DNA from: Armatimonadota bacterium
GTDB lineage: Bacteria > Armatimonadota > Armatimonadia > Armatimonadales > Capsulimonadaceae
Direction: 5' to 3'
Length of the DNA: 64,000 nt
Assembly (NCBI GenBank): GCA_025354405.1
Contig: JANXMY010000150.1
Location: 1-64,000 of the forward strand
Shown here: one piece after another, positions 40,624 through 57,158 of the stretch
Layout: each line of letters starts with the position of its first letter
How positions within the stretch are numbered: the stretch's first letter is position 1
Translations under genes and position numbers: made by a program
The notes under the pieces: model-generated
What the model was told of the DNA's origin: nothing
Database searches by the model: none
The model's input: the letters and a program-made list of their open reading frames with translations, nothing else

Positions 40624-41970
40624 TTAGATACTCAAGTACCGCTGCAGCTCCCAGGCCGTCACGCTTTTGGCAATCATCTCGTGGTACTCGTCCCACTCCA
40701 CGCGCTTCTTCTCCAGGTAAACTGGCGCGTAATCCGCCCCGAGGGCATTGCAGAGCACATCGTCACGCTCCAGATCGTCCAGTGCCTCGCCGAGATTTGC
40801 GGGCAGTAAACCGATCCCCTGGGATTCCGCTTCCTTCGCTGACAACAGAAACAAGTTTCCGTCGCGGCCCGCATCCACCTTCAGACCACGCGCAATGCCG
40901 TCCATTCCGGCGGCGAGAAGCCCGGTGGCAGCGAGGTAGGGGTTGGATGAGTTGTCCGCTGTTCGGTATTCCAGACGCCCCGGGGCCGGGACACGCACCA
41001 TCACGGTTCGGTTGTTGCCACCATGCGAGATAAAAACCGGTGCCCAGGTTGCACCGGAACGCGGGGAACGTGCCCCAAATCGCTTATAGGAGTTGACAGT
41101 CGGCGCGGTCAGAGCGCACAGGCCTTTGGCATGAGCGAGCAGGCCGCCGAGAAACGAAAGTGCGACGGAAGACAGTCCACGTGGGTCGCTCTTATCCAAA
41201 AAGAGGTTGTCTTTACCCTCGGTATCCCAAAGGGAAAGATGGTAGTGGGCTCCGCTTCCCGTTAGCTGGGTAAATGGCTTCGGCATAAAGGTCGCGCACT
41301 GGCCGCGCTCCTCCGCCAGAGCCTTGACCATAAACTTGAAGAAGGACACCTGGTCAGCGGTCTTCAGGGCATCACCGAAACGCCAGTTGATTTCAAATTG
41401 GCCGTTGGCATCTTCGTGGTCGGCTTGATAGACGCCGTACCCCAATTCGTTCAGGTGTGTGATCAGAGTTGTCAGAAAATCCGAGTTCCGCAGAAGAGAA
41501 ATCTGGCCGTAGCAGGGCTTTGACAGAGTGTCCTCCGCATCGGCGACCCCGAGCGTACCGTCAGATTTCTTGTCCACGAGAAAAAACTCCGGCTCGACCC
41601 CCGTTTTCATCGTGAATCCTCGGCTCCGTGCCTCTTCCATTGTCCGCGTGAGAATAGTCCGAGGGCAATAGTCCCAGTTCTGCCCGTCCATCTGCAGGTT
41701 GCCTGCGATCCATGCCGTCCCCGGTCTCCAGGGCAGGGGAAAGACAGTCGAATCCGCTTGCGGCACACAGCTCAGGTCCGGTTCATGCGGCCCTTGTCCG
41801 ACGCCATCCACGGCGAACCCCGCAAAGCCCGCCGTGCCCTCCAGCATGTCTTTGAGGTTCTCGGCGGGAACCAGCTTGGCGCGCGGCGTGCCGTGCATAT
41901 CGACGAAAGACATAAGAAAAAACTTGATGTTTTTTTCCTGAAATAACTGCTGAGTCTGCGCGATATTCAT
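40624..41970 (-). CDS. GlnT/GmaS-type glutamine synthetase homologue (last gene of cluster)
   Basis: This is a 448-residue member of the glutamine synthetase family. It has SFVDMHGTPRAKLVP, GVEPEFFL and ADHEDANGQFEINW (metal ligands), FTQLTGSGAHYHLSLW, and NSYKRFGARSPRSGATWAPV. The C-terminal RLEYRTADNSSNPYLAATGLLAAG is also conserved. Length and pattern fit the GlnT group, which includes gamma-glutamylmethylamide synthetase. That enzyme joins methylamine to glutamate with ATP. It is one of two such genes in the cluster; the other is at 44549-45928. Which one uses methylamine is not decided. Confidence 0.88.
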   Translation of the reverse strand: MNIAQTQQLFQEKNIKFFLMSFVDMHGTPRAKLVPAENLKDMLEGTAGFAGFAVDGVGQGPHEPDLSCVPQADSTVFPLPWRPGTAWIAGNLQMDGQNWDYCPRTILTRTMEEARSRGFTMKTGVEPEFFLVDKKSDGTLGVADAEDTLSKPCYGQISLLRNSDFLTTLITHLNELGYGVYQADHEDANGQFEINWRFGDALKTADQVSFFKFMVKALAEERGQCATFMPKPFTQLTGSGAHYHLSLWDTEGKDNLFLDKSDPRGLSSVALSFLGGLLAHAKGLCALTAPTVNSYKRFGARSPRSGATWAPVFISHGGNNRTVMVRVPAPGRLEYRTADNSSNPYLAATGLLAAGMDGIARGLKVDAGRDGNLFLLSAKEAESQGIGLLPANLGEALDDLERDDVLCNALGADYAPVYLEKKRVEWDEYHEMIAKSVTAWELQRYLSI

Positions 41971-41982
41971 TCAATGGTTCTC

Positions 41983-43176
41983 CTACCGTAAAAATTTCGC
42001 CCGCTGGTATGGATAGCACGTGCGGATCGGGCGTTCTTCCGCAAAGCGAGACTGCGTGAAAATCGAAATGTCAAACGGGTCTGGCTGGCCCAGAGCGCGG
42101 GCCGCCATCGCTTCGCCGACCACCGGGGCCAGCTTGAACCCATGCCCGGAGAAGCCGACAGCCGCGTGCAGCGTCTCCCCAAAGCTGTCCAGGATCGGCT
42201 GCCAATCGGGGGTGGTCTCGTAGAGTCCGGAGAACGAACGCTGGACACCGCCTTTGTCGCCTTCCTCCATGCCCTCAAAGCGGAAAGATGCCTTGCGGCG
42301 GGCATCCGCCACGGCCTTTGCCCCTGTGCCTTCGTCAAAACCGTCCGGCTCAGGGAGATAATCCTGCAGGTCGGCGTTGTCAGAGGAGCCGACCCACATG
42401 CCGCTGCTGCCATCGGCACGGAAGTAGGCCAGATTGATGAGATCTGAGACGACCGGGAAGACCCCTGCGAATGCCTCCGGCCGTTCCAGCACCACGATCT
42501 GTGCCCGGGCAGGTGTGACGGGCAGGTCCAATCCAAAAAGTGATCCAATCGGTTTAGACCAGTTTCCGGTGCAGAGCACGACCTGTCCCGCCGACACGAC
42601 TTCGCCGTTACCGAGAGTGACCTGCCAGCCGGAGCCGTCCAAACGGGCAGCGGCGGTGACAGGGGAGCCAAAGCGCAGGTCCGCTCCCAGCTCCTTCGCC
42701 CGTGCCGCGTAGGCCGTTACGGTCAGCGGCGGGGATGCAAAGCCGCCTTCAGGCTCGTAGGCGCAGAGAGCGGCGTCTTCGATTTTCAGAGAAGGGACGA
42801 TCTCCCTCAGCTCCGTGGGGGTCAGCAGCTTGGCGCTGACCCCCAGAGACTGGTGCATGGCCGTGATGTCGCGCAGATTCTGGGCATCGGCGTCATCCAC
42901 CAGGACGGAATAGCCGCTGGCGACAAAGCCGCAGGGGCGGCCGATCTCGTCGTCAAATCGGGCGTATCGTTTGTTGGCCTCCAACGCCAGCGTCACCAGG
43001 GCTGGGACGCCGTAATGTGCCCGGATGATCGCCCCGGAGCGGGCCGTCGTCTCAGAACCCGGCTCCAAGTTGCGCTCGACCAGAGTCGTTTTTGCCCCCG
43101 ACTTCGCCAGATAATAGGCCGTCGCACAGCCCATCAATCCGCCGCCGATGACCAGCACATCGGTTGTGGTCGCCAT
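41983..43176 (-). CDS. FAD-dependent amine oxidase, sarcosine oxidase beta-like
   Basis: ATG at 43176 is 2 nt after the upstream stop. The 397-residue flavoprotein has the dinucleotide fold VLVIGGGLMGCATAYYLAKSG, ARSGAIIRAHYG, and the DAO C-terminal motif VGFSGHGFKLAPVVGE. It resembles the beta subunit of heterotetrameric sarcosine oxidase and the MgdA subunit of N-methylglutamate dehydrogenase, which oxidise N-methyl groups. The delta and full alpha subunits of those complexes are missing. It lies between mgsC-like and glutamine synthetase-like genes. It probably oxidises an N-methylated amino acid, with the methyl carbon passed to tetrahydrofolate by the GcvT-type partner. Confidence 0.85.
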   Translation of the reverse strand: MATTTDVLVIGGGLMGCATAYYLAKSGAKTTLVERNLEPGSETTARSGAIIRAHYGVPALVTLALEANKRYARFDDEIGRPCGFVASGYSVLVDDADAQNLRDITAMHQSLGVSAKLLTPTELREIVPSLKIEDAALCAYEPEGGFASPPLTVTAYAARAKELGADLRFGSPVTAAARLDGSGWQVTLGNGEVVSAGQVVLCTGNWSKPIGSLFGLDLPVTPARAQIVVLERPEAFAGVFPVVSDLINLAYFRADGSSGMWVGSSDNADLQDYLPEPDGFDEGTGAKAVADARRKASFRFEGMEEGDKGGVQRSFSGLYETTPDWQPILDSFGETLHAAVGFSGHGFKLAPVVGEAMAARALGQPDPFDISIFTQSRFAEERPIRTCYPYQRAKFLR

Positions 43177-43178
43177 GA

Positions 43179-44510
43179 TTAGTTCCCTCCCTCGCCCCAG
43201 AGATTGAGCGGGATCGGGCGACGGGTCCCGGCCAGCGGCAGGCCGGTGATCAGGGCAGATTCGAGAGTCAACGCCCGCAGGTCGTCCCGGTCCAGATTGC
43301 CCACACGCGACTTGCCGCAGGCGCGGGCCATGATCTGCATTTCCAGGGTCATGGCGTGCAGGAAGTTCTCCACACGCTCGGCGGCGTCTTCCACCGGCAG
43401 ACGCTTCATCAGCTCCGGGTCCTGTGTCGCCACGCCCACCGGGCAGCGACCTGTGTGACAGTGGTGACAGGCTCCCGGCTCGGTGCCCATGGCATGGTAG
43501 TCTTCGATCCAGAGCGGAGCATTGCAATTGAGCGCGATGATCGCCGCCGTGCCGATCGCCACGGCATCCGCCCCCAGAGCAATGGCCTTGGCGGCGTCGA
43601 CGCCGGTTTTGATCCCGCCGCAGACGATCAATTGCACCACCCCCAGCAGCTTCAGATCTTCCAGGGCCCGCACCGCCTCGCAGATTGCCCCGAGTGTGGG
43701 GATACCTGTGTGGTCGAGCAAAACGTCCGGGGAAGCAGCGGTGCCGCCTTCCATTCCATCGACTACCACGCAGTCCGCCCCAGCTTTGGCGGCCAGCTTG
43801 ACATCCTCATAGACCCGGGCCGCACCGAGCTTGACGTAGATGGGCTTTTCCCAATTGGTGGCTTCGCGCAGCTCCTCAATCTTGATCGCCAGGTCTTCCG
43901 GTCCCATCCAGTCCGGGTGGCGGCACGGAGAGCGCTGGTCGACACCGTCGGGCAGGTCCCGCATTCGGGCGATCTCCGGGGAAACTTTTTGGCCAAGCAG
44001 CAGCCCGCCGGTGCCGGGCTTTGCCCCCTGGCCGACGACGATCTCAATGGCATCGGCCCGCTGAACATCTTTGGGGTTGAACCCGTAGCGAGATGGTAGG
44101 CACTGGTAGACCAGCATCTTGGAATATTCGCGGTCGGAAGGGTGCATGCCCCCGTCGCCTGTGCAGGTGGATGTCCCGACACGGGTTGCTCCGAGGCCCA
44201 GTGCCTCTTTGGCATTGCGGGAGAGGGCCCCGTATGACATGCCCGCGATCGTGATCGGCGTCTTGAGCTGCAGGGGCTTCTTGGCAAAGCGGGTGCCGAG
44301 TGTGACACTGGTATCGCACGTCTCGCGGTACCCTTCCAGGGGAACCCGGGTCAGGCCGGACGGCAGGAATGTCAAATCTTCGAGCGTCGGCAGCTGTCGT
44401 GCCGTAGAAAATGCACGGATACGGTACCGACCGAGACGCGCCTTTTCCTGAATATCATGGATCGAGGCCCGGTCCCAGATTCGGGACGGCGTTGTTTCAT
44501 CTATCGGCAT
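43179..44510 (-). CDS. FMN-binding glutamate synthase domain protein (MgsC/GlxD-like)
   Basis: This 443-residue protein is the central FMN domain of glutamate synthase. It has TPITIAGMSYGALSRNAKEA, GTSTCTGDGGMHP, EIVVGQGAKPGTGG, YVKLGA, and the Fe-S cysteines in ACHHCHTGRCPVGVATQ. In the N-methylglutamate pathway this domain is a separate subunit that, with two others, makes N-methylglutamate from gamma-glutamylmethylamide and 2-oxoglutarate or an analogous reaction. The two partners are at the other end of the cluster (55555-57158). ATG 44510 has AAGGAG upstream. The longer frame to 44612 is not used. Confidence 0.9.
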   Translation of the reverse strand: MPIDETTPSRIWDRASIHDIQEKARLGRYRIRAFSTARQLPTLEDLTFLPSGLTRVPLEGYRETCDTSVTLGTRFAKKPLQLKTPITIAGMSYGALSRNAKEALGLGATRVGTSTCTGDGGMHPSDREYSKMLVYQCLPSRYGFNPKDVQRADAIEIVVGQGAKPGTGGLLLGQKVSPEIARMRDLPDGVDQRSPCRHPDWMGPEDLAIKIEELREATNWEKPIYVKLGAARVYEDVKLAAKAGADCVVVDGMEGGTAASPDVLLDHTGIPTLGAICEAVRALEDLKLLGVVQLIVCGGIKTGVDAAKAIALGADAVAIGTAAIIALNCNAPLWIEDYHAMGTEPGACHHCHTGRCPVGVATQDPELMKRLPVEDAAERVENFLHAMTLEMQIMARACGKSRVGNLDRDDLRALTLESALITGLPLAGTRRPIPLNLWGEGGN

Positions 44511-44548
44511 AAGAAGGTCTCCTTTGGTGAAATCTAATTTGGATAATT

Positions 44549-45928
44549 CTAGAAGAATCGAGCGTAGCGGTCCACTTCCCACTGCGAGATGGACTGGTGG
44601 TACTCTTCCCATTCCTCTCGTTTATAGCGGACAAACTCGTCTCGCAGCTCTTTTCCAAGTGTCTCCTCGATAAACGGGTCGGCTGCGAAGAAGTCTACGG
44701 CCTCATCGAGCGTGCGTGGCAGCAGGAATATTCCCTTGTCGATCAGTTCATCGTCGGTGTACGCGTACATATTCTCGTGGTGGGGTGGGCCGGGGTCTTT
44801 GCCCTCGGCGATGCCTTCCAATCCGGCGGCGAGGGCCAGAGTCGCGGCCAGATAGGGGTTGCAGGAAGAATCCGCTGCCCGGCACTCGACCCGTCCGCCG
44901 CTCATCGGGACACGCAGGTTGTTTGACCGGTTGTTACCGCCGTAGCAGTTGAAGACCGGTGCCCAGGAGTAATAGGACATCTTGCCCTTGCGTAAAAGCC
45001 GCTTGTACGAGTTGACTGTTGGACTGAAAGCCGCTGCATTGCCGAGGCCATGCTTGATCAATCCGCTGATAAATCCGTAGCCCAGAGCAGATAGCTTGCA
45101 GCCATGCGCGTCTTCGTCACCCGGTGAAGGCTCAAATAGGTTGTGGCCCGTCGTGATGTCGGCGAGGCTCATATTGAAGTGGGCCCCGTTGCCGGTCAGG
45201 TTTGCAAACGGCTTGGGCATGAAGACAGCCAGCAGACCCATCTCGGCAGCAACCTTTTTGGCCATGAGGCGAAAAAATGTGTAGCGGTCGCAGGTGGTCA
45301 GGGCATCGGCGTAGCCGAAGTCGAACTCGAACTGCGAGTGGCCGTCTTCATGATCGAATGAGTAGACATCCCAGCCCAGATCGTTGATGAGCGTCGTCAT
45401 GCGATCGAGAAACGGGAAGGCATCCATAAATCTCTGGACGTCGTAAGCCGCTTTATCCAGATTATCATTGTCGTTGGGGACAACAAGTTTTCCGGACTCG
45501 TCCAGCTTGAGCAGGTACATCTCAGCCTCGATTCCGAGGTTGAAGGTATAGCCAAGCTGCCGCGCTTTTTCGGTCACGCGCTGCAGGGCCACCCGCGTGC
45601 TCAAAGGGTATGGCTCATTGTGGAAGTAGTTGTCCGACGGAAACCAGGCGATCTCTTTCTGCCAGGGGATCTGAAAGCCCCGATCGAAGTCGGGAACACT
45701 GCTGATCTCATCGTCATTCGGCTGCTGCCCGAGTCCGTCCAGTGCGTAGCCTGTGAACAGTTCTGAGCCGCGTGCCATGTCTGCGAAATGTGCCAGGGGA
45801 ACACATTTCGCTTTGGGCACTCCGTGAATGTCCACATAGGCCCCGAGGGCGTAGCGGACACCTGAGGCCTTGAGTTCCAGCACTTTGGCGTCAATCTGGG
45901 CATCACTGTAGCGGGTTACTTTGGTCAT
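44549..45928 (-). CDS. GmaS-like gamma-glutamylamide synthetase (glutamine synthetase family)
   Basis: This 459-residue protein shares [81 protein letters not shown] and [24 protein letters not shown]. These are the active-site pieces of glutamine synthetase in GlnT-group form. The family includes GmaS, which makes gamma-glutamylmethylamide from glutamate, methylamine and ATP. Its start overlaps the stop of the creatininase gene (ATGA). Coupling with the mgsC-like gene 38 nt downstream supports a role in amine capture. Confidence 0.88.
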
Positions 45929-46689
45929 AGTCTCTCTTTCTTGGTGTTCGGAAAAGGCGGCTCCTCGGTAAGAGCAGACTGCACAAGTGCTGATAAATCT
46001 TCAACCGCCCACTCCAGCAGCGACCGTCCCTGTTCTGCTGTCGCCTGGGTCGGCTTTCCCGTCGCACCGTCGATACTGGTGCGGTCAACCGGGTACGAAA
46101 AAAACAGATTGCCTGTTCGGTCCGGATCGTCGGCGATCCTTTCGACTCGAACCCCTTGCGGAAAGTGCGCCAGCATCAGACTCGTCTCGGCGGCATTCGC
46201 GTGCCAGTCTGAGGCATCTGCCGTGTATTCCAGCGTGACGCGAGGCGAAATCTCCCAGAGATTGCGCACGGCGATTCGCATTTCTGGGTGCCGGAAACGC
46301 AGGATCTCCAGGGCGGTCCGCAGGGACGCAAAGTTTGTCATATGCCCATTCAAAATCAGCAGGCGCGTGAAACCCGAAGCCGCCAGCAGCCATTCGCCGA
46401 TCTCCACGACCGTCTGCGTCACCGTCGCCGGGGACAGCGACAGGGTGCCCGGCCACTTCGCCGTATGGCCCCAGGCTGCACCGTAAGGCAGGGTGGGAAG
46501 GACGGGAACTCCGGTCTGCCCCGAGACGCCGCGTGCGACGCTCTCCGCACTCATGGTGTCGACATTCAGGGTCAGGTGCGGCCCATGCTGTTCGGTGCTG
46601 CCGATCGGCAGGATCGCCATGTCCATACCTCCCTCGCGCAGTGCACCCACTTCTTCCCAGGTCAGCCATTCCCATAAAATCGGTGTCAT
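45925..46689 (-). CDS. Creatininase-family amidohydrolase
   Basis: This 254-residue protein has the family metal site: [34 protein letters not shown] (usually NGHGGN), and [17 protein letters not shown] with the metal Glu. Members hydrolyse cyclic amides or formamides, including creatinine to creatine. The altered NGHMTN motif is a small deviation. It overlaps the gmaS-like gene by 4 nt. In this cluster it may hydrolyse an amide intermediate or a precursor; the substrate is open. Confidence 0.85.
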
Positions 46690-46703
46690 AAAGTTTCTCG
46701 TAA

Positions 46704-46743: not shown

Positions 46744-46752
46744 AGAGTCGGT

Positions 46753-48267
46753 CTAATCGCCGTGGATGACCTCGCGGCGTCCCCCTAGATCGTCCGCACC
46801 TTCAGGCATTTCCTGAAGGTGACCGCCGCCGGCAAAGACCAGGGATGGACGCTTATCCTGCACCAGCCGTCGGTAGAAGTAAAACGGCACAAACAGCAGC
46901 ATAATCGTCCAGCCGACTCCCATCACGGTCAGGTCCATTGCGTGTCCGAAGGGATGGATTGTCGAGATCGGTGTGGCATCCCATTGCGGGCCGCCAACAA
47001 TGAAGATGAAGAGGTTGAACAGAGTGATGACGGCCGCAAGCAGAAGGAAGAACCCAGGCAGCTTGAAAGGCCGGTTCGTGTCAGGCTGCTTCACTCTCAG
47101 AACTACATAGGACGGGATTAGAACCAGCCAGACAATGATGTATCCGACATTGGAGGCTGCGATCAAGTTAATGACGTTGTTCTTGAAGATGAGCAGCATC
47201 GCGATCGTCACCGCCAGGTCCACAAACATAGACCCGACAGGAACGCCGTACTTGTTGATCGCCCCGAACTGCTTGATCATCTGACCGTCGTGAGTCATCT
47301 GGTACATCGAGCGCGACGAGCCGATGATTGTGGTCTGTACACCCAAAAGCAGTGCCGTGATCAGCATGATGGAAACGATGACGCCCCCGGCATGTCCGAA
47401 GATCGCCTGAGCGGCAGGCAGGAACGCTACTGAGGCATCCTGGGTCAGAATGCTGACACCCACGATACCGAGCATCACGAATGGGAGGATGCCATAAGCG
47501 ATAAATCCGCCGACCGACGCGGCCAGCATGGCTTTCGGCCCGTCCTTGTGCGGGTCTTTCAGTTCAGCAATTGTCGTTGACGCCGCTTCGATCCCATAAG
47601 CCGACCAGAGGGCGACAAACATCCACTTGAAGATCAGCATCCACGAGGCATGCGAATGCCAGGAGCCGTGAAGCGGGACAAAGGGCACGATATTCGACAA
47701 ATGGAAGAGGTGTGGATGCAGGACCGGCGATACAATGATCACAAACATGGGCGCAATCGCGCAGACGGCCATGACCGCCGAGGACCAGATTCCAGGCTTC
47801 AGTCCGACATAGTTGGTGGCGTACAGGAACAGGGCCATGGTGATGGCGGCAGTTAAGACCTGGCCGTCCGTCATGTGCGGCATGAACGATTTCAGGTAAC
47901 CAGCGGCAACAATCAGGTTGACGGGGATCACGGGGACCCAGCCGCACCAGTACCCCCAGTTCGCGATTGCGCCGACAATCGGCCACCTCTTGAAAGCTTC
48001 ATGTGAGTAGACGGCGGTGCCGCCGCTTTTGTTGGGGAACATACCCGCCATTTCCGCAATCATCAGGCACTGCAGGATGGCAATGGTGACGACCACAGTC
48101 CAGACAAATACGGAGGCCGGGCCGAGGTCCCCGGCGATCGCGCCAAGCGAGGTCGCAATAAGAAGCGCGGCTCCTAGAGAGATGACAAACGCTGATTTCC
48201 AGGTGACGGTTCGCGCCAGTGCGGGCTCGGTGACGGCGGGAGCCGTGACGGATAGTGTTGTACTCAC
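46753..48267 (-). CDS. APC-superfamily amino acid/amine permease
   Basis: This 504-residue protein has about twelve membrane segments. It opens VTWKSAFVISLGAALLIATSLGAIAGDLG, a typical APC first helix, and has MIAEMAGMFPNKSGGTAVYS, the equivalent of the GG-turn after helix 2. It ends in a charged cytosolic tail. It belongs to the amino acid-polyamine-organocation group. Its place in the cluster suggests that it imports the amine or amino acid that the pathway uses. Confidence 0.87.
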   Translation of the reverse strand: MSTTLSVTAPAVTEPALARTVTWKSAFVISLGAALLIATSLGAIAGDLGPASVFVWTVVVTIAILQCLMIAEMAGMFPNKSGGTAVYSHEAFKRWPIVGAIANWGYWCGWVPVIPVNLIVAAGYLKSFMPHMTDGQVLTAAITMALFLYATNYVGLKPGIWSSAVMAVCAIAPMFVIIVSPVLHPHLFHLSNIVPFVPLHGSWHSHASWMLIFKWMFVALWSAYGIEAASTTIAELKDPHKDGPKAMLAASVGGFIAYGILPFVMLGIVGVSILTQDASVAFLPAAQAIFGHAGGVIVSIMLITALLLGVQTTIIGSSRSMYQMTHDGQMIKQFGAINKYGVPVGSMFVDLAVTIAMLLIFKNNVINLIAASNVGYIIVWLVLIPSYVVLRVKQPDTNRPFKLPGFFLLLAAVITLFNLFIFIVGGPQWDATPISTIHPFGHAMDLTVMGVGWTIMLLFVPFYFYRRLVQDKRPSLVFAGGGHLQEMPEGADDLGGRREVIHGD

Positions 48268-48326: not shown

Positions 48327-48830
48327 TCAGTGCGGTTCGGCGAAGGCCAAGAGTGCCGTCAGTGGCAGAGGAGAAATCGAGTTTTTGTCACAACACTGTG
48401 CAGTCTGTAATTCGAAAGTAGTTCTGTGGCGCCATACCAGAGCGGCAAAGTCGCCAACACGAACCGGGACCGCACGGTTGTTCGGCAGACCCGCCAGCCG
48501 GTGCGGCGGCTTGACGGTCGAGATTTTCAAGAGTCTCTCCTGCGCCTCTTCGCCCAGAATAAGACGGGTTAGAGCGCTTTGCTTGACCCAGACCCGCTTT
48601 CCGGCAGCCGCAGTGTTCAGCGCTTCGGCAAGAGACTCGGATTGCCCCTGAACACCGATCCGGAAGTTGTTCTCGCTGAGCCGCAGCAGGGAGCAGCCCA
48701 TCCCTGAGTGCGCCGTCTCCAGCGACTGGTAGACGGACAGCTTACAAGCGGCCGAACCGAAGACGGTGCAGGCCAGCTCTAAGCCGTCCACTCCGGCGAA
48801 GTCCCACAGGTCTGTCTCAGGATGGCTCAC
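48327..48830 (-). CDS. SoxG-like (sarcosine oxidase gamma family) protein
   Basis: This 167-residue protein has a hydrophobic core pattern close to the gamma subunit of sarcosine oxidase and GcvT-like folds (AACKLSVYQSLETAHSGMGC, NNFRIGVQGQSESLAEAL). The match is weak. The main evidence is position: its ATG overlaps the stop of the DUF1989-GcvT gene (ATGA) and it lies in a cluster with a sarcosine oxidase beta-like flavoprotein. It could be a structural subunit of the methyl-oxidising enzyme. Otherwise it is hypothetical. Confidence 0.55.
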   Translation of the reverse strand: MSHPETDLWDFAGVDGLELACTVFGSAACKLSVYQSLETAHSGMGCSLLRLSENNFRIGVQGQSESLAEALNTAAAGKRVWVKQSALTRLILGEEAQERLLKISTVKPPHRLAGLPNNRAVPVRVGDFAALVWRHRTTFELQTAQCCDKNSISPLPLTALLAFAEPH

Positions 48831-51013
48831 GACTTCACCCGCAGCTTCTGTGGATCATAGGCCGCAAGTGGCCCCACTACAGCGCGTGTTCGGCGCGTCT
48901 GACCATCCACAAACCCGACCTCCAATTCCGTCCCCATTGCGCCGTACTCTGGGAAGACCTGAGCCAGAGCAATACTCCGGTTCAGAAACGGCGAAAAAGT
49001 GGTACTGGTGATCCGCCCTGCCGAAAAGGTGTCTCCAGAAGCGTAGAGATGTTCGCCGATCGGGGCGACTTCGTTTCCGTCGAGTGTCAGCCCGACGGCG
49101 ACACGCGGCGGAGCAGCTTGTAGCCGCTCCGAGGCGGACTTACCGATAAAGTCTGGCTTCTGCAGGCTGACTGTCCAGCCGATTCCCGCCTGGAACGGTG
49201 AGATCCCCGGATCGAATTCGCACCCCGGCCCCAGCAGGCCCGCTTCGATCCGCGCTCGGTCCAGCGCTGCGAGACCCATCGGGAGCAGCCCTTGCGGGCC
49301 GCCCGATCTTAAGAGGTACTCCCAAAGAGCCGCCCCATCCTGCGGATGCACGAACAGCTCATAGCCCAGTTCCCCTGTATAGCCGGTGCGGGATACAAGC
49401 ACCGAAATCTCTCCGATCCGGCCCGCTGCAAACCGAAACGGCTGCATCTCTTCGAGCGTTTCTAAACCCCACTCGGGATCGAGCGCGAGAATTGGGCCGA
49501 GAATTGCGCGTGATTGCGGTCCCTGCAGAGCCAGATTGTGCCAGAGGTCACTTGAGGACTTCACGCGAACATCAAAATTCCGGTCTCCGGCGATCCGTCG
49601 CAGCCAGTCCCCATCAGTCTCGCAGTTGCTGACCACGCGGAAAGCAGCCTCACTCAACCGAAAGACGATGCCATCGTTGACCATGCCGCCGTGGGCGTTC
49701 ATAAAACAGCCGTAGGCCGACTGGCCTTTCTTGAGCTTCGACAGATCACGCGAAAATGCCGTTTGCAGCAGCGCAAATGCGTTCGGGCCATAGACTTCGA
49801 ATTTTCGCAGCGAGGACAGATCCATGATCGCCGCTTTTTCACGCAGCGCCCAGTATTCCGCGTACTCGCCCCCCTTCGCATAGCTGCTCGGAAGCCAGAA
49901 TCCGCCAAAGTCGGCGAGGTCGTCCGTGAGCACGCGGATAGACGGCGTGAAGGCCGTCTCCTGTGTCATCTGAAGCGGGCGATCGCGGGAAACCCGCCGC
50001 CCCGATCCGGCAGGAAAGCGATTGCCAGAATCGTATAGCCGGACATGAATTGGGGTCGGGTTCCAGCCGTTCACCGGGTCGATGTCGTCCGCACAGCTGG
50101 AAGTCGTGCAGAGCAGATCAGTCTGCGCTTGCAGCAGAACATAATCGCCGGGCCGTGCCCAGGACTCGCCGCTGACGATGGTTCCATCCGAAAGCACTTC
50201 CGTGTTAAAGAAAAAGTTCAACGCGGCCCATCCGGGCCGGGCAGCGACCGCATATTTCGCTAAATTTAGGTTAAAGTTAGTTGTACAGTTCGCATGGCCC
50301 GGATAGCCGATATCATCATAGTAGAGCTCGCTGCATGCCAGCAGAAAGCTGTCGTGGCGGCCGCAGGTATCCTGAATGACTTCGATCAGCGGGCGCATTT
50401 CCTGTGAGAAATATTTCCCGTGCAGCCCCGCTCCCGGCATGGACGTTCCGTTCAGCGTGCGGGTTGCGGCTCCGTCCAGCTCCTCAGTCAGGTCCGTTCC
50501 AGCGAATGCCAGAAAGTCGGCGCACTGGCTCCCTTCGACATTCAGTATCTGTATGTACTGTCCGGCTTTGACCTTGTAGGCGATCGCCGTGGCTCCGTCG
50601 ATCCGGTACTCGGCAGTGACCGGGGCCAGCGGCTCCGGGAGATCATTGAACTTTTGGTCCGGGAAGGCCAGCGGCATCCGCACACGCAGAGCGGTCTGCG
50701 GAGTCAGTGGAGCAAACCTGGAGTCGTCACCTGATATCGCCCCGATTTCCATCCACTGATCGCGGCAGGCCCGGATGGTCAGCTCCGCACCGGATCGATT
50801 TTCTGAAGTGACCGCGATCCGTCGCCGCAGCACATCCCCCGCCGTCACTCCGGCGCCAATGCTCGACACGACCTCGACTGCCGCTCCGTCCTCCAAGTCC
50901 AGCGCAAAAGGCTGCTCACCTTCAGGGTCGCATACACCCAGCAATGCACCCGCCGGGACGAAGATTCGCCTCGGGGTGGACGGTGCAAGTGTGATTGTTT
51001 GGTAGTCTTTCAT
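48827..51013 (-). CDS. DUF1989 - GcvT aminomethyltransferase-like fusion
   Basis: ATG at 51013 is chosen; the frame is open further into a palindromic repeat. The 728-residue protein has an N-terminal ~90-residue domain. DUF1989 (urea-carboxylase-associated) follows, about residues 130-340: GQYIQILNVEGSQCADFLAF, DTCGRHDSFLLACSE, NCTTNFNLNLAKY. From about residue 370 it has a full GcvT fold (REKAAIMDLSSLRKFEVYG, ALQGPQSRAIL, SRTGYTGELGYELF, GLAALDRARIEAG). GcvT-type domains pass a one-carbon unit to tetrahydrofolate. In sarcosine oxidase this domain belongs to the alpha subunit, so here it may be the carbon acceptor for the flavoprotein at 41983-43176. Confidence 0.85.
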   Translation of the reverse strand: MKDYQTITLAPSTPRRIFVPAGALLGVCDPEGEQPFALDLEDGAAVEVVSSIGAGVTAGDVLRRRIAVTSENRSGAELTIRACRDQWMEIGAISGDDSRFAPLTPQTALRVRMPLAFPDQKFNDLPEPLAPVTAEYRIDGATAIAYKVKAGQYIQILNVEGSQCADFLAFAGTDLTEELDGAATRTLNGTSMPGAGLHGKYFSQEMRPLIEVIQDTCGRHDSFLLACSELYYDDIGYPGHANCTTNFNLNLAKYAVAARPGWAALNFFFNTEVLSDGTIVSGESWARPGDYVLLQAQTDLLCTTSSCADDIDPVNGWNPTPIHVRLYDSGNRFPAGSGRRVSRDRPLQMTQETAFTPSIRVLTDDLADFGGFWLPSSYAKGGEYAEYWALREKAAIMDLSSLRKFEVYGPNAFALLQTAFSRDLSKLKKGQSAYGCFMNAHGGMVNDGIVFRLSEAAFRVVSNCETDGDWLRRIAGDRNFDVRVKSSSDLWHNLALQGPQSRAILGPILALDPEWGLETLEEMQPFRFAAGRIGEISVLVSRTGYTGELGYELFVHPQDGAALWEYLLRSGGPQGLLPMGLAALDRARIEAGLLGPGCEFDPGISPFQAGIGWTVSLQKPDFIGKSASERLQAAPPRVAVGLTLDGNEVAPIGEHLYASGDTFSAGRITSTTFSPFLNRSIALAQVFPEYGAMGTELEVGFVDGQTRRTRAVVGPLAAYDPQKLRVKS

Positions 51014-51050
51014 GTGTATGAACCGAAAGCAAGCGAGACCGAGCGAGATC

Positions 51051-51189: not shown

Positions 51190-51194
51190 CTCTT

Positions 51195-52628
51195 CTATAC
51201 GGCTGCCGAATACGTCGCCTCTTCCGCGCAAGCCTCCGCCATCAATTTCTCGGCCAGCGCACGTTTCTGCCCGGTGTCCATCTTCTTGGTCTCGTTATGC
51301 ACCACGCGGTCGTTGACGTGCTGGTTCCAATAGTCCAGCGAATCTATCCCCAAAAGAGCGAGCTTGCCGACAAACTGGCGCAGGACTTCATTGGTTGGCC
51401 CCATGACCCAGCCAGCCTTGCCGTCGCGCAGGTAGCGCTCGATTCCGAGGTCCTTCTTATAACCCGTTCCCCCGCAGGCATGAAGCATCTTGTCACAGAC
51501 CTCGGCAACGTTTTTTGCGGCCATGAACTTGATCTGCCAGTACCAATGCAGATAGGCGGCTCGCGGGGTGGCAACGATGTCATCGTGCAGTGACCAGTCA
51601 CAGTTATTCGTGAGATCGTCCATCAGGCGGCCCATGCTGAACGAATAGATGCGGCAGGCATTGGTCGTCATGATCGCTTCGCCGACATAGTCCTGTATCG
51701 TCGGGTAGTCAGCGACACGCATCCCGACATCCACATGCTTTTTGCGTGTCGTCTGCATCTTCGCGATGTCGATGGCTCCCATGGCGATCCCGTTCCAGCA
51801 GGACGACGAACAGAGCAGAAAGAACGGGTCGACGATCTCATCGTTCGAGATTACGCCGTCGCCAATGGGGCCGACAATACGAGAGGCGGGGAGAATTACT
51901 GCGTCTACCTCAAGCGTACCTGACTGATTTCCACGCAGGCCCATGGCATCCCATTTGTGCGGCTCGGCTTGAACTTCTTCTTTGAGAACCAGAAAGCAGG
52001 ACAAGTCAGAATAGTTACCTTTGAAGTCCGGGCTGGTCGTCTGCACGACATAAAAATCAGCAAACCCCGCCGAAGTGGTCCAGGAAGCTTTCTTGCTAAT
52101 TTTCCAGCCCTCGCCATCTCGCTCGGCGCGGGAAGAGACCGGATACCAGAAGTGCGACCCTGTTTCCGGGTCTGAGTACGAGAGTGTCCCGATCAGAACG
52201 TCGCGGTCGAGCCTCTCAAGCAAGGTGACGAACGTCGGATTGTACGCGGCGCGGAAGAGCAGCGACGCGACCGCGCCCAGGTGCATTGTGTAGCACATGG
52301 CGGTGCTGGGGCAGCCGTAGCGGGCAATTGTCTCGACTACCATAGCGGCGCACACATGGTTCTCGCCGAGGCCGCCCATTTCTTTAGGAACTAACAGGCT
52401 GAGCAGGCCAAGTTCCGCCAGCTTCTCGAAGTTCAGGCGCGGATAGATTAGGCCGGTATCCGATTTGACGGCATTCGGGCGCAGGGTTTCGGCACAGGCT
52501 TCGATCAGCCGAGTCTGGAGCTGCTTCTGGGAATCGGTCAGCACCCATTGCGGGTCGAAATCGTACCCGAGACCCCAGAACGGTTTAGCATCTTCTGCCA
52601 TTTCTTTCCACATCTTCTCTTGAGACAT
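51195..52628 (-). CDS. Acyl-CoA dehydrogenase-like flavoenzyme
   Basis: This 477-residue protein is related to acyl-CoA dehydrogenases. It has LGLLSLLVPKEMGGLGENHV, IGTLSYSDPETGSH, and a C-terminal helical domain ending CDKMLHACGGTGYKKDLGIERYLRDGKAGWVMGPTNEVLRQFVG. That last part is the region where most members read GGxG...RDA. The catalytic base cannot be fixed from sequence. Some relatives are flavin monooxygenases or N-hydroxylases that act on amines, so it may be an oxidative enzyme of the amine pathway rather than of fatty acid oxidation. It sits 9 nt upstream of neighbours that are N-demethylase parts. Confidence 0.8.
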   Translation of the reverse strand: MSQEKMWKEMAEDAKPFWGLGYDFDPQWVLTDSQKQLQTRLIEACAETLRPNAVKSDTGLIYPRLNFEKLAELGLLSLLVPKEMGGLGENHVCAAMVVETIARYGCPSTAMCYTMHLGAVASLLFRAAYNPTFVTLLERLDRDVLIGTLSYSDPETGSHFWYPVSSRAERDGEGWKISKKASWTTSAGFADFYVVQTTSPDFKGNYSDLSCFLVLKEEVQAEPHKWDAMGLRGNQSGTLEVDAVILPASRIVGPIGDGVISNDEIVDPFFLLCSSSCWNGIAMGAIDIAKMQTTRKKHVDVGMRVADYPTIQDYVGEAIMTTNACRIYSFSMGRLMDDLTNNCDWSLHDDIVATPRAAYLHWYWQIKFMAAKNVAEVCDKMLHACGGTGYKKDLGIERYLRDGKAGWVMGPTNEVLRQFVGKLALLGIDSLDYWNQHVNDRVVHNETKKMDTGQKRALAEKLMAEACAEEATYSAAV

Positions 52629-52637
52629 TTTTGGTTC

Positions 52638-53642
52638 CTAATCTAGTTGGTTATGCTTCAGCCAGGTCATGACCGCCTCACGCGTATCAGTCAAACCTTT
52701 GTAATCTGTGATTTCCGGCGGCAGCGATTCTAGGACACGCCCCAAACGCTGTGCCCATTCGGGATTGGTCGCCAGCTCGTCCAGGCGAATCAAATAGGTA
52801 CGGATACTAAATAAAACCCCATGCGAGCGCGGCAATCGGGCCAATACTTGGGCTTCGACGCGCAGATGCACCTGCTCACCTGCGTTCTCCGCCGTGACGC
52901 CCGATTTGTCCCGGCCCCACAGGTGATAGGTCTCCGAGGAAGTCTCCAGGCGCGGCCCAATAGTGAATGTCCAGTTCAGCCGCTGCCAGGGCTGGTCAAT
53001 CTCCAAGTTCATCAGAAATTTCTTGGCCCGCGTAAAGACTCCCGCAGGATGCGCCAGCGGAACCGGCCCATGCCACTCTTCGAAAGTCATGCCCAGATCG
53101 AAAGTGAGTGACCAATCGGCGGGGAACGTCACCAGCCCTGCATCCAGGTACAGATCGCCTTCGCGCTGGTCCAGCAGGCAGAAATCACCCTGCATCTGCC
53201 GCCCCATCCATTCCAGCGGCTCAAGTGGCAGAGTGGACGGGTCCCCAAACGTAAAATCCTGGGTGATCCCTAACAAATAATTTTCCCAGTGCCAGAAATC
53301 ATCCTCTTGTCTGAGCGTGAAACTCTCCGGGTACGCTGCGGCCAGATGGGTCATGCTCATCTCGAGAAAGTCCCACTGGGCTTCCATCATATGCGGCAGA
53401 GTAAGATACCGCCGTCCATGGTCTTCGCTGAGAATACGCCGCCGCTCATCAAACTCGGCCCTGTAATGCTCGTCGATATCGAAAAGGTGTTCGTTATAGG
53501 TTCCTGCTTCGCCCTGACCCGCTGGGGTGAGGTTGACCGAGTAGCCATAGCTGTCCGTGCTGAAGGGGAACGGGAAACGCCGCATGGCTTCCGCGGAGTT
53601 CCTCAGGGACGGCACAGTTTTGGATTCGAGGATCATAGTCAT
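52638..53642 (-). CDS. Heme-dependent oxidative N-demethylase (DUF3445; DmmD/HodM-like)
   Basis: This 334-residue protein is a DUF3445 member. It has RRFPFPFSTDSYGYSVNLTP, RRYLTLPHMMEAQWDFLEMSMTHLA, a WHWENYLLG segment, and DFCLLDQREGDLYLDAGLVTFPADWSL. Known relatives are heme-dependent oxidative N-demethylase and the DmmD subunit of dimethylamine monooxygenase, which use O2 and electrons from a reductase to remove a methyl group from a secondary amine. Its reductase and small partner are directly upstream. Start could be 53642 or 53636 (MTMILE). It is the strongest pointer to an amine substrate. Confidence 0.88.
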   Translation of the reverse strand: MTMILESKTVPSLRNSAEAMRRFPFPFSTDSYGYSVNLTPAGQGEAGTYNEHLFDIDEHYRAEFDERRRILSEDHGRRYLTLPHMMEAQWDFLEMSMTHLAAAYPESFTLRQEDDFWHWENYLLGITQDFTFGDPSTLPLEPLEWMGRQMQGDFCLLDQREGDLYLDAGLVTFPADWSLTFDLGMTFEEWHGPVPLAHPAGVFTRAKKFLMNLEIDQPWQRLNWTFTIGPRLETSSETYHLWGRDKSGVTAENAGEQVHLRVEAQVLARLPRSHGVLFSIRTYLIRLDELATNPEWAQRLGRVLESLPPEITDYKGLTDTREAVMTWLKHNQLD

Positions 53643-53653
53643 GGTTATATTTC

Positions 53654-54625
53654 CTAACCCGGCAGTGCAAGCGTCAGCCTCTGACCCCGGCAGCGGGAGA
53701 CGCAAGTGATGATCTTTCCCTCGTGTAACTCGCCCTCGGACAGGCAGCGGTCACGGTGGTCGGCCTCGCCCCCCAGAACTTGCATCTCACAGGTCCCGCA
53801 TTGCCCGACGCGGCAGGAAGAGGCAATTGGTACGCCTGCCCGTTCCAGGGCTTCCAGAATCGTTTCCCGGACGCCCACTTTCACTTCCAAGGACAGCTCG
53901 GGCAGGTGGACGAAGAATGGCGCGGAGTCGCTCACCGGCGGTGGCGCGAATTCTTCGAAGTGAACATGGGACGCTGGCCAGCCCATCTCCGCTGCCGCGC
54001 CGCTGACAGCGGCGATCAGCAAATGCGGACCGCAGACATAGACATGAGTTCCCAGCGGCTGATGCGCCAGAACCGCTGCCGCCGAAAGCCGCGACCCTTC
54101 TTCCGAGACGTAGAACCGGGCATAGGTGCCATACTCACCACAAAGCTGCTCCCAGAACGCGCCCCCCACGCGGTCGCGGAAAGCATAATGCACCTCGAAC
54201 GATGCCCCCGACCGCCGAAGTGCGGGGAGGTGTGCCAGAAACGGCGTGATCCCGATGCCTCCAGCGATCAAAACGTGTTTTGCAGCATGACGAGCCAGCG
54301 GAAAGTAATTGCTCGGCGCACCGATTTCCAGCGTGTCGCCGCTGTGAACCTGATCGTGCAGGAACTGCGATCCGCCTTTCGTACGTGACAGATCCTCTTT
54401 GCGAACGGCGATCTGATAGAACCGCGTCTCGCCCGGAGTTCCAATCAGCGAATACGAGTTGCGCCAGATGTGCTCTCCATCGGAGAGGGTCATGCTAACA
54501 TGGCTGCCACTTGACCAGCTCGGCAGGCGCCGGCCCTCCGCATCCTCCAGTGTAAACCGCTTGACACAGGGTGTCACCAACTCGGTCTGAGTCACGCGGA
54601 CTATTCGCTGTGGTCGACTTGTCAT
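53654..54625 (-). CDS. PDR-type ferredoxin reductase of the N-demethylase (DmmB-like)
   Basis: This 323-residue protein has a flavin domain (FTLEDAEGRRLPSWSSGSHV, RNSYSL), an NAD-binding domain (HVLIAGGIGITPFLAHLPAL, HVYVCGPHLL), and a C-terminal plant-type 2Fe-2S domain (SSCRVGQCGTCEMQVLGGEADHRDRCLS). This is the phthalate dioxygenase reductase layout. It passes electrons from NAD(P)H to an oxygenase, here the DUF3445 heme enzyme just downstream (11-nt gap). It overlaps the DmmA-like gene by 4 nt. Confidence 0.9.
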   Translation of the reverse strand: MTSRPQRIVRVTQTELVTPCVKRFTLEDAEGRRLPSWSSGSHVSMTLSDGEHIWRNSYSLIGTPGETRFYQIAVRKEDLSRTKGGSQFLHDQVHSGDTLEIGAPSNYFPLARHAAKHVLIAGGIGITPFLAHLPALRRSGASFEVHYAFRDRVGGAFWEQLCGEYGTYARFYVSEEGSRLSAAAVLAHQPLGTHVYVCGPHLLIAAVSGAAAEMGWPASHVHFEEFAPPPVSDSAPFFVHLPELSLEVKVGVRETILEALERAGVPIASSCRVGQCGTCEMQVLGGEADHRDRCLSEGELHEGKIITCVSRCRGQRLTLALPG

Positions 54626-55107
54626 ATCGGCAGCACTCCGAGGTCAGCAATCACACCCATGTAAGCTTCCAGAGGGCGTGAAAAATGATCGCGTACCGTC
54701 AGTTCCAGGCCGCAGTGCTGACAGCGATGGATCGTCGTGGTTACCTGCTCGTTCATCTTCCCGCAGATGACACAATAAACGCGACGCGCCACACTTCCAG
54801 CAATCTCCTGCTGAATACGCCGGTTTTCTACTCCGGCTAGCCGCAGGCAGTTAGCGGTCTGCCACAGAAAGAGCTCCGGCCCGGCGATGTAAAAAGCCGT
54901 CTCCATGCCCGCCTTCGCCAGAGCTTCGGACATCCGTGCTTCGCGAGATAAAGGGTCATCAAGTATCACCAAAGCCGCGTCCACGGGGAAAGATGCAGCC
55001 AATGCGCGCTGGGCGGCAAACAGGCCGTCCTGCCCCTGTGTCAGAAAGAGGTGACGCCGGGCCGTGCGGTCGAGTTCCAGCACGGCATAAACCGGCTTGC
55101 TTTTCAC
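54622..55107 (-). CDS. DmmA-like dimethylamine monooxygenase subunit
   Basis: This 161-residue protein ends in a zinc-ribbon-like segment: YCVICGKMNEQVTTTIHRCQHCGLELTVRDHFSRPLEAYMG. That is the C-terminal pattern of DmmA, a small subunit of dimethylamine monooxygenase. The N-terminal half has a Rossmann-like beta-alpha pattern (DAALVILDD, AFYIAGPELFLWQTANCLRL). Its stop overlaps the reductase start and its start overlaps the cupin stop. The three genes DmmA-, reductase- and DUF3445-like form a compact enzyme module. Confidence 0.82.
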   Translation of the reverse strand: MKSKPVYAVLELDRTARRHLFLTQGQDGLFAAQRALAASFPVDAALVILDDPLSREARMSEALAKAGMETAFYIAGPELFLWQTANCLRLAGVENRRIQQEIAGSVARRVYCVICGKMNEQVTTTIHRCQHCGLELTVRDHFSRPLEAYMGVIADLGVLPI

Positions 55108-55538
55108 GAAGTGAACCCCGGTGTCGCCACGGTCCCCTCGAACCCAGGGAGAAAAGATGCCTCCGGGCCGCGATGGCCTGCATAGACTGCCGTGCCGTCA
55201 CTCTCCGCTTGAAAGATCACCAGGCAGGGCGGGGTGAATACATATATGTCGCCTGGTTCTGCCTCATAGCGCACTCCTGCTTCGTCTTTCACGATGATTT
55301 TGCCAGTGACGATGGTTTTGACTTCCAAATATTCGTAAAAGAATGGAAAGTCGACCGAAGGATGCATCTCAAATCGGCCCATAGTCAGCGGCTTTTCTTC
55401 ACTGGACATGGGGATATCGATAATCGTGCTTCGCAGCCCTGGACGCTGGTAAGAGTGTTCCAGATCGATCTGCGACGGAGCGCCGTTTTTAATCAGTTGT
55501 ATTCCTGGCTTTTGCGCGAGCGACGGTGGTGTGGTCAT
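55104..55538 (-). CDS. Small cupin (EutQ-like) protein
   Basis: This 144-residue single-domain cupin has strands FFYEYLEVKTIVTGKIIVKDEAG and YEAEPGDIYVFTPPCLVIFQAES. The canonical metal motif GxxxHxHxxxxE is not present; Tyr-Glu-Tyr-Leu-Glu replaces the histidines. Such cupins near ethanolamine or amine enzymes may sense or bind a ligand or accessory metal. It overlaps the DmmA-like gene by 4 nt. Confidence 0.75.
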   Translation of the reverse strand: MTTPPSLAQKPGIQLIKNGAPSQIDLEHSYQRPGLRSTIIDIPMSSEEKPLTMGRFEMHPSVDFPFFYEYLEVKTIVTGKIIVKDEAGVRYEAEPGDIYVFTPPCLVIFQAESDGTAVYAGHRGPEASFLPGFEGTVATPGFTS

Positions 55539-55554
55539 AAGTTTCTCCTGACGA

Positions 55555-56262
55555 TTATAAAGCGGTCTTCCAAATCTCTTTTTCTTTTTTGTCGAAGTTG
55601 TACAGCTTTCTGCCGGAAACGATCTTCTTGAAGTCTGCCGGGACCATGTCCATGCCGGCGTCAGTGAGCGCCTCGGAGAGAAGGGTGATATCGGATTCGG
55701 TCAAATCGGCCTGAACTGCGTCGCTGCCCAGGGCGTCGATCGTGCCCCGGATATAGATCTTTCCCTCGTAAAGCGAGTCGCCCAGGGCTTCGCCTGCGTT
55801 GCCGCCGACGATCATCACACCCTTCTGCATCATGAAGCCGGTCATGTAGCCGACATCGCCGCCGACCACCAGTGTTCCGCCTTTCATCGCAACCCCGCAC
55901 CGTGCCCCAGCATCGCCGCCCACGATGATCGTCCCGCCGCGCATAGTCGCACCGGCAGCCGATCCGGCGGACCCGGTGATCTGCACACGGCCCTGCATCA
56001 GGTTCTCGCCCAGGCCCCAGCCTGCGCCCCCTTGAACCTGCACGTTCACACCTTCGCACAATCCAGCGCAGTAGTAGCCGACGTGTCCTTCGATCCGAAT
56101 GGCAAGCGGTGAAGTCAGCCCGACCGCCAGATTATGACGGCTGTCCGGATTCGCCAAAACGACTTCCAACTCCATTCCCCGGCCTGCGGCCTCCTGCAAA
56201 AACATATTGATTTCGCGGGTGCTGCGGCCTTCGCAGTCAAATGTCCTTATGCCCTCTCCCAT
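55555..56262 (-). CDS. GXGXG glutamate synthase domain protein (MgsB/GlxC-like)
   Basis: This 235-residue protein is a right-handed beta helix with repeated G-x-G-x-G turns (GGTIIVGGDAGARCGVAMKGGTLVVGGDVG and so on). It is the C-terminal structural domain of glutamate synthase as a separate subunit. In N-methylglutamate synthase it pairs with the GATase and FMN subunits. The start overlaps the end of the mgsA-like gene by 16 nt. Confidence 0.9.
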   Translation of the reverse strand: MGEGIRTFDCEGRSTREINMFLQEAAGRGMELEVVLANPDSRHNLAVGLTSPLAIRIEGHVGYYCAGLCEGVNVQVQGGAGWGLGENLMQGRVQITGSAGSAAGATMRGGTIIVGGDAGARCGVAMKGGTLVVGGDVGYMTGFMMQKGVMIVGGNAGEALGDSLYEGKIYIRGTIDALGSDAVQADLTESDITLLSEALTDAGMDMVPADFKKIVSGRKLYNFDKKEKEIWKTAL

Positions 56263-57158
56263 ACACGTACCTCCCGTGGCCGAATTTCTTTGATGACCGC
56301 ATTCTGTCCAAGCAGGTGATAGAGTGCCTGCGGCTCCGAGCCGAGAGCGACCTGTGTCTCAGTCTCCACATACAGCAGGGGCTTAGTTGCAAATGGATCG
56401 CGCACGACGCCCAGGCTATTCGTCGTCGCGACGATGCAGGAATAGGAACCGTCCAATTCTTTGCCCGCCGCCGAGAGTGCCTCGTGCAGCGACAGCCCCG
56501 AGGCTATTTTGCGGCCCAGATAAATCCCGATGATCTCCGAGTCGTTGTGGCTGGCGAACCCGAATCCCTCCGCCTCGAACCGCAGACGCAGTTTATGATA
56601 GTTCGTGATATGGCCATTGTGTGTCACGGCAAGGTCCGGATAAGGCCTTCCCCAGAAGGGCTGAGCGTGGGCCGGATCGATCTTTGACTCCGTCGCCAGC
56701 CGCAGATGCGCGATTCCGTGAGTCCCCATCAGTGAGCCGACTGAAACTTCCAGCCCCTCGACCATACCGACGGCTTTCTCCACGGTCAATCGAGTACCCA
56801 TGCCCGAGACGGTGGCTCCGGGCAGCCCCGTTTCCAATGCTTGAATTAGCTCCAGGTCAGCCTGCACGGAGTTTCCTGATGCCGGCCGGACAGCGGCGGA
56901 AAATCCGGACTTCTCCGGGCAGAGATCGCTCAGACGACCTCCTCCCAGTTCGAGAACCTCCTGCGGCTCCGGCAGAGGTCCCGGGTGCGGCAGCATGACT
57001 TGCAGGCGCAGCCCCACGTCTGCCGCCCCGAACACTGCCATACCCGCGGAATCCATACCCCGATGCTGCAGGCATGCGGCCATCGTTAGGAGTGACCGTC
57101 CGATGGGGGCAGGTTCGTTCGTAATTTGTTTATACAAAACGCCGGCAATGCCGCACAT
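56247..57158 (-). CDS. Class II glutamine amidotransferase subunit (MgsA/GlxB-like)
   Basis: This 303-residue protein keeps the N-terminal catalytic Cys directly after Met (MCGIAGVLY), QHRGMDSAGMAVF, GTHGIAHLRLATES, and AVTHNGHITNYHKLRLRFE. This is the Ntn GATase of glutamate synthase as a separate subunit. A segment of about 45 residues (55-99) contains LPHPGPLPEPQE and looks repeat-derived. It interrupts an otherwise ordinary domain. This is the first gene of the cluster. The promoter is at 57316-57344 and the leader is ~150 nt. Confidence 0.88.
   Translation of the reverse strand: MCGIAGVLYKQITNEPAPIGRSLLTMAACLQHRGMDSAGMAVFGAADVGLRLQVMLPHPGPLPEPQEVLELGGGRLSDLCPEKSGFSAAVRPASGNSVQADLELIQALETGLPGATVSGMGTRLTVEKAVGMVEGLEVSVGSLMGTHGIAHLRLATESKIDPAHAQPFWGRPYPDLAVTHNGHITNYHKLRLRFEAEGFGFASHNDSEIIGIYLGRKIASGLSLHEALSAAGKELDGSYSCIVATTNSLGVVRDPFATKPLLYVETETQVALGSEPQALYHLLGQNAVIKEIRPREVRVWERA

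Follow-up and report, generated by a model that had tools for sequence, protein, structure and literature searches.

In the sea and in soil, trimethylamine (TMA) and trimethylamine N-oxide (TMAO) are important sources of nitrogen and carbon, and tmm serves as a marker gene for TMA oxidisers. The closest described system is the Tmm-Tdm-DmmDABC-GmaS-MgsABC-MgdABCD pathway of Roseobacter, Methylocella and Paracoccus (PMC5520151, PMC4543880). A fifteen-gene operon of an Armatimonadota bacterium (assembly GCA_025354405.1), located within the first 64,000 nucleotides of contig JANXMY010000150.1 (this whole stretch is referred to below as the window), likewise unites homologues of Tdm, DmmABC, GmaS and MgsABC with a permease in one cluster. 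It differs from that pathway in missing Tmm, DmmD and MgdABCD, in the separation of mgsC from mgsAB, in its host, which lies outside Pseudomonadota and Actinomycetota, and in several additions: an acyl-CoA dehydrogenase (ACAD)-like enzyme, a lone DAO flavoprotein, a second GmaS-type ligase, a creatininase-family protein, a cupin and a protein of 167 amino acids (aa). Methylated-amine catabolism, which had been proposed from the DNA letters alone (hereafter the sequence-only reading), is borne out by the family matches. The operon very probably encodes an aerobic route from TMA/TMAO to glutamate, if the steps proposed for the ACAD-like enzyme and the DAO flavoprotein are left open. The ACAD-like gene is the new element of the operon and encodes a so far unstudied flavoprotein.

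The proposed route would consist of six steps. TMAO or an amine would be imported by the APC permease, and TMA would be oxygenated to TMAO by the ACAD-like flavoprotein in place of the absent Tmm. The Tdm homologue, judging by its homology and conserved metal residues, would split TMAO into dimethylamine and formaldehyde, after which DmmABC, i.e. the haem-dependent oxidative N-demethylase (HODM), would demethylate dimethylamine to methylamine. GmaS (GS1) would then form gamma-glutamylmethylamide, to be converted by MgsABC to N-methylglutamate; strong homology points to this step as well as to the preceding one. Finally, the DAO flavoprotein would oxidise N-methylglutamate to glutamate and formaldehyde. 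The part leading from TMAO through dimethylamine and methylamine to N-methylglutamate is proposed because homologues of Tdm, HODM, GmaS and MgsABC are found together. Taken in full, with the ACAD-like protein as the replacement of Tmm and DAO at the last step, the route is our best explanation and stands slightly better than an even chance.

Four consecutive genes include the ACAD-like gene and tdm:
51195..52628, minus strand: ACAD-like flavoprotein, proposed Tmm replacement (TMA N-oxygenase); Pfam acyl-CoA dehydrogenase domains, orthologues upstream of tdm, catalytic Glu replaced
48827..51013, minus strand: homologue of the TMAO demethylase Tdm, DUF1989-GcvT; NCBIfam NF053776 at 788 bits, PDB 9q59 at E=2.8e-172, metal-site residues kept
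48327..48830, minus strand: 167-aa protein, weakly SoxG-like; hhalign to SoxG P 3e-4
46753..48267, minus strand: APC permease, probable importer of TMAO or an amine; top NCBIfam match the Methylocella silvestris TMAO permease, at 234.6 bits against a cut-off of 690

The ACAD-like gene, which was given little weight in the sequence-only reading, proved the most informative of the operon. About 400 genomes each of Pseudomonadota (399) and Actinomycetota (397), in samples centred on L012 (an Ectothiorhodospiraceae metagenome-assembled genome, MAG) and L030 (Nocardioides), were searched for Tdm, which was found in 26 and 10 genomes, respectively, and the tdm neighbourhoods were read at 24 and 10 loci. 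Among the Pseudomonadota, Tmm was present near tdm in 17 of the 24 loci and ACAD in none of them; the ACAD orthologue was found in 0/399 genomes, a weak negative without a positive control in that set, though the same query gave matches in Actinomycetota. There, the orthologue is located directly upstream of tdm in eight of the ten tdm genomes, and the remaining two have Tmm near tdm. In all nine sampled pairs, counting the window, ACAD and tdm share a strand, with ACAD immediately upstream. Over the 397 Actinomycetota, tdm is carried by 10 genomes, the ACAD orthologue by 9 and both by 8 (Fisher p=2.8e-14); in the ninth ACAD genome the contig ends just past ACAD, which adjoins gmaS/mgs genes, and the side on which tdm would lie is truncated. 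Genome-wide searches found no Tmm in any of the eight actinobacteria carrying ACAD and tdm; only the two tdm genomes without ACAD have it, and no FMO-type Tmm was matched at E<=1e-20 in the window genome or its congener. The actinobacterial gmaS-mgsABC/ACAD-tdm loci (L158-L164, L166) resemble the window in the position of the orthologous ACAD and in the lack of Tmm, usually with genes of the N-methylglutamate (NMG) pathway nearby and often with an APC permease; they differ in having no HODM near tdm and, in some cases, in the presence of SoxB/SoxA/SoxD genes nearby.

The tdm-linked ACADs form one clade (support 100/99), with orthologues 56-66% identical; those adjoining tdm in Actinomycetota are 62-66% identical. 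The catalytic glutamate of acyl-CoA dehydrogenases, located in the motif xEGT, is missing from the window protein: MGPTNE replaces this motif there and in all nine orthologues, while the Glu is kept in the ordinary ACADs aligned alongside. Membership of the acyl-CoA dehydrogenase superfamily might mean that an ordinary acyl-CoA dehydrogenase gene, unconnected with amine metabolism, is carried along here as a passenger, although the loss of the catalytic Glu, the near-perfect co-occurrence with tdm over the 397 genomes and the adjacency kept in two phyla make this highly improbable. ACAD-fold (group D) flavin monooxygenases, three of which (Dms1-3) come from Acinetobacter baylyi, oxidise dimethyl sulfide to dimethyl sulfoxide (DMSO), a reaction also catalysed by Tmm (PMC13352529). 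Dms1-3 have the superfamily fold in common with the window ACAD and a substrate, dimethyl sulfide, in common with Tmm, whereas they act on sulfur compounds and share the reductase MsuE. Because of the adjacency to tdm, the exclusion of Tmm, the lost Glu and these dimethyl sulfide-oxidising relatives in fold, the simplest reading is that the ACAD-like protein would make TMAO from TMA for Tdm. On the grounds of context and active-site changes, we see an even chance that it replaces Tmm as the TMA N-oxygenase. The wider proposal, that in many Actinomycetota, as in this Armatimonadota lineage, TMA N-oxygenation may be carried out by an unrecognised family of ACAD-fold flavoenzymes through non-orthologous displacement of Tmm, falls just short of even. 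A literature search found no paper tying an ACAD-like enzyme to TMA oxidation, with most subscription papers outside its coverage. Single-sequence AlphaFold models of the ACAD-like and 167-aa proteins had a mean predicted local distance difference test (pLDDT) score of 33-34 and were therefore left out of fold searches.

Plasmid searches revealed no close relatives of either the ACAD-like or the 167-aa protein. The best plasmid ACAD, from Methylocystis iwaonis (L113 12001-13182), is 30% identical, has the common motif MGP[ST]N and adjoins a gene of dimethyl sulfone monooxygenase, sfnG; it may oxygenate dimethyl sulfide or DMSO.

Profile searches with Pfam and NCBIfam confirmed the domains named in the sequence-only reading apart from two labels: the best NCBIfam match of the DUF1989-GcvT protein is TMAO demethylase (NF053776, 788 bits, compared with 154 bits to SoxA), and no Pfam family matched the 167-aa protein labelled 'SoxG-like'. 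The sequence-only reading had placed these two proteins with the DAO flavoprotein in a sarcosine-oxidase-like module; this is not supported, as the main protein of the module is a Tdm homologue. The possibility that the DUF1989-GcvT protein is a SoxA remnant was rejected on these scores and on PDB 9q59, which was aligned over nearly the full length (query 27-727) of the DUF1989 + GcvT architecture. The metal-site cysteines, histidine and aspartates are those proposed in PMC12560246, and the residues were mapped by motif spacing: QCADF, LLACSE, PGHANC and SSCADD are all present, and the equivalents of the Zn/Fe site residues Cys263, His276, Cys279, Cys343, Asp346 and Asp198 of M. silvestris Tdm are kept, as are two aspartates that are Ala in PDB 9q5a. 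A reduced sarcosine-oxidase-like complex of these three proteins, which would demethylate N-methylglutamate, could be suggested by the weak SoxG signal of the 167-aa protein (hhalign probability 40%, with P 0.14 as the best of eight shuffles) and by the GcvT-like C-terminal domain of SoxA, itself not found in the genome. Such a complex is improbable in view of the much closer affinity to Tdm, the retained metal site and the loci read elsewhere, where tdm adjoins Tmm or ACAD and not a lone SoxG.

The DUF1989-GcvT protein is best called a Tdm homologue rather than a certified family member because it is divergent, with its closest relatives 49-53% identical and a long branch, and no donor can be named from the tree. 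A Tdm from an actinobacterium, encoded next to the ACAD orthologue, reaches 1207 bits and exceeds the curated cut-off of 1100. No Tdm relative was found in the viral contigs searched.

The dimethylamine step is predicted for three adjacent genes:
54622..55107, minus strand: DmmA-like subunit of dimethylamine monooxygenase; NCBIfam NF041259 at 87.5 bits, cut-off 60
53654..54625, minus strand: DmmB-like PDR/VanB-family reductase containing a 2Fe-2S domain; Pfam Fer2 and DmmA-like_N, ~47-48% identical to PDR genes adjoining HODM in L011 and L012
52638..53642, minus strand: DmmC/HODM alpha, haem-dependent oxidative N-demethylase; Pfam PF11927 at 250 bits, PDB 5lte at E=1.6e-131 over 319 residues

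The oxidative N-demethylase module of the sequence-only reading (DUF3445, PDR reductase, DmmA-like) is upheld by PF11927, by Fer2 with DmmA-like_N, and by NF041259; the DUF3445 haem subunit, the PDR reductase and the DmmA subunit are encoded together. The alpha subunit is homologous end to end with that of Pseudomonas HODM (PDB 5lte) and keeps 110 of 129 near-invariant positions. A difference from Pseudomonas is that a separate gene for the GcvT-like delta/DmmD subunit is absent from the operon, according to the Pfam/NCBIfam scan of its proteins. DmmABC without DmmD is reported to be active in E. coli and to be enough for growth on dimethylamine (PMC5520151).

The genes that may lead from methylamine to glutamate, together with GS2, are:
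56247..57158, minus strand: MgsA-like glutamine amidotransferase subunit of N-methylglutamate synthase; Pfam GATase_7/GATase_6, homologue first in the mgs clusters of Paracoccus, Rhizobium and Actinomycetota
55555..56262, minus strand: MgsB-like GXGXG subunit; Pfam GXGXG, 38-52% identical to cluster homologues
44549..45928, minus strand: GS2, a divergent ligase of the GmaS type whose amine pocket is changed; TIGR03105 at 562 bits, cut-off 470
43179..44510, minus strand: MgsC-like FMN subunit of N-methylglutamate synthase; Pfam PF01645, ~60% identical to cluster homologues
41983..43176, minus strand: DAO-family flavoprotein, candidate single-subunit N-methylglutamate oxidase/dehydrogenase; Pfam DAO at 224 bits, nearest PDB entry Pyrococcus 1y56_B
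40624..41970, minus strand: GS1, GmaS (gamma-glutamylmethylamide synthetase); TIGR03105 at 567 bits, cut-off 470, 43-45% identical to proteobacterial GmaS

A split N-methylglutamate synthase accompanied by two GmaS-type synthetases was correctly recognised in the sequence-only reading, as follows from the Pfam matches and from TIGR03105, exceeded twice. All three MgsABC subunits (GATase, GXGXG and FMN) are present, and the MgsC-like protein keeps 130 of 138 near-invariant positions. GS1 keeps all the catalytic residues of GmaS, Asp177, Glu186 and Arg312 (PMC7948447). GS2 has D177 and E186, and its amine pocket is changed at two positions (Q175->S, N188->D); the changes of Gln175 and Asn188 suggest that it acts on another amine. 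The absence of the four-subunit N-methylglutamate dehydrogenase was also confirmed, since no match to a SoxA-type subunit/MgdC (TIGR01372) exceeded the cut-off genome-wide, the best being a GcvT-like protein and Tdm. As the genome is without SoxA, the DAO flavoprotein, rather than MgdABCD, is the candidate for oxidising N-methylglutamate to glutamate and formaldehyde, a tentative assignment reached by elimination and rated somewhat below even. A DAO-family flavoprotein 29% identical to that of the window adjoins Tmm near tdm in a Tmm-bearing actinobacterium (L167 of G958, 1712-2899).

The strongest competing view is that the organism uses TMAO only, that ACAD performs some other step beside Tdm (dimethylamine oxidation, or the release of TMA/TMAO from a larger amine), and that Tmm is absent as TMA is not a substrate. 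The affinity of the APC permease to a TMAO permease would fit, and so would the actinobacterial ACAD-tdm loci, which have no HODM within ~9 kb of tdm and where ACAD may have a dimethylamine role; in one of these actinobacteria, G870, the examined 1.67 of 2.62 Mb (64%) contained no HODM. However, the two Tmm-bearing actinobacterial loci are likewise without HODM nearby, the window encodes HODM as well as ACAD, which would make a dimethylamine role of ACAD redundant there, and this view offers no reason for the mutual exclusion of ACAD and Tmm; we therefore regard it as unlikely. Together with the HODM-less loci, several other points weigh against the route with ACAD in place of Tmm. The exclusivity of ACAD and Tmm in tdm-bearing actinobacteria concerns 10 genomes only (Fisher p=0.02), which lack independence, and apart from the window genome all ACAD cases belong to a single phylum. 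No dedicated flavin reductase gene adjoins ACAD, although ACAD-fold monooxygenases need reduced flavin. The window Tdm, at 788 bits, is under the curated NF053776 cut-off of 1100, and its branch length is 2.1. Finally, the elimination leading to DAO was made in a genome that is 96% complete.

The genome of G870 contains two gmaS-mgsABC sets (L250 and L211, G870:C1, at ~2.11 Mb and 2.17 Mb). One is canonical, with soxBDA, and the other is divergent (GmaS ~33% identical) and located near a dimethylglycine-dehydrogenase-like gene. Because HODM was not found in the examined part of this genome, dimethylamine might be processed by the second set in the form of glutamyl-dimethylamide.

The merging of dmm and NMG-pathway genes was considered as a novelty and rejected. 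According to the sequence-only reading, established systems keep dimethylamine monooxygenase and the NMG pathway apart; a search for the same gene set in other genomes did reveal related sets, and it also showed that such merging is already known. In Paracoccus aminovorans pII and Rhizobium sp. CCGE532, tmm, tdm, dmmDABC, mgsABC-gmaS and soxBDA(G) are located in one region, and in Methylohalomonas lacus and the Ectothiorhodospiraceae MAG dmm is found together with mgs; 'methylotrophy islands' have already been published (PMC4543880). The occurrence of these gene sets in known TMA degraders speaks for the proposed pathway.

The fifteen closely packed minus-strand genes described in the sequence-only reading are all present as open reading frames (ORFs), running from 57158 down to 40624; neighbouring genes overlap by 4-16 bases or are separated by short gaps, mostly <65 bases, with 181 bases ahead of the inferred Tdm start. 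They are transcribed in the order GATase, GXGXG, cupin, DmmA-like, PDR reductase, HODM alpha, ACAD-like, DUF1989-GcvT, 167-aa protein, APC permease, creatininase-family, GS2, FMN glutamate-synthase domain, DAO flavoprotein and GS1. An aconitase gene upstream and an ion-pumping pyrophosphatase gene downstream flank the operon on the 149 kb contig, and their products are 96% and 95% identical, respectively, to the counterparts in a congeneric species (G005). In that species the same operon adjoins the same pyrophosphatase and has internal deletions: tdm, ACAD, the genes of the 167-aa protein and the creatininase-family protein, and the permease gene are missing, and dmmA/PDR, HODM and GS2 are present as cut copies. 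Contamination of the MAG was ruled out by the same-genus identity of the flanks and by the operon location common to both species. The retained parts have ratios of nonsynonymous to synonymous substitution rates (dN/dS) of 0.01-0.14, i.e. are under purifying selection. The contig is authentic and, because of this constraint, the arrangement of genes is not due to chance. In the G005 operon (L114, G005:C150:20000-39584, positions 6196-14163) two deletion joins show overlaps of 4-10 bases, and DmmA-PDR and HODM are fused into new reading frames; the deletions may reflect recent decay, or else a chimeric assembly.

Two further genes complete the operon:
55104..55538, minus strand: cupin (EutQ-like); Pfam Cupin_3, retained in G005 with 83% identity
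45925..46689, minus strand: creatininase-family amidohydrolase; Pfam PF02633 at 214 bits, under the creatininase and MftE cut-offs

These two proteins, GS2 and the 167-aa protein, for which no convincing NCBIfam or PDB match was found, are unassigned to any step of the proposed route. Elsewhere in the window, a 1060-aa ORF (13625-16807, minus strand) fuses an FtsW/RodA-type glycosyltransferase domain with a penicillin-binding transpeptidase domain, which are usually two proteins. Pilin-like H-X9-DG proteins also point to Armatimonadota as the phylum.

The operon is a variant of the known pathway, and its value lies in pointing to a probable unrelated replacement of Tmm. It would carry TMA/TMAO catabolism into a phylum where Tdm was seen in 1 of 291 genomes, and it suggests that one flavoprotein can substitute for the four-subunit N-methylglutamate dehydrogenase. 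If the replacement is true, tmm-based surveys would overlook whole groups of TMA degraders, amounting to eight of the ten tdm carriers in the sampled Actinomycetota.

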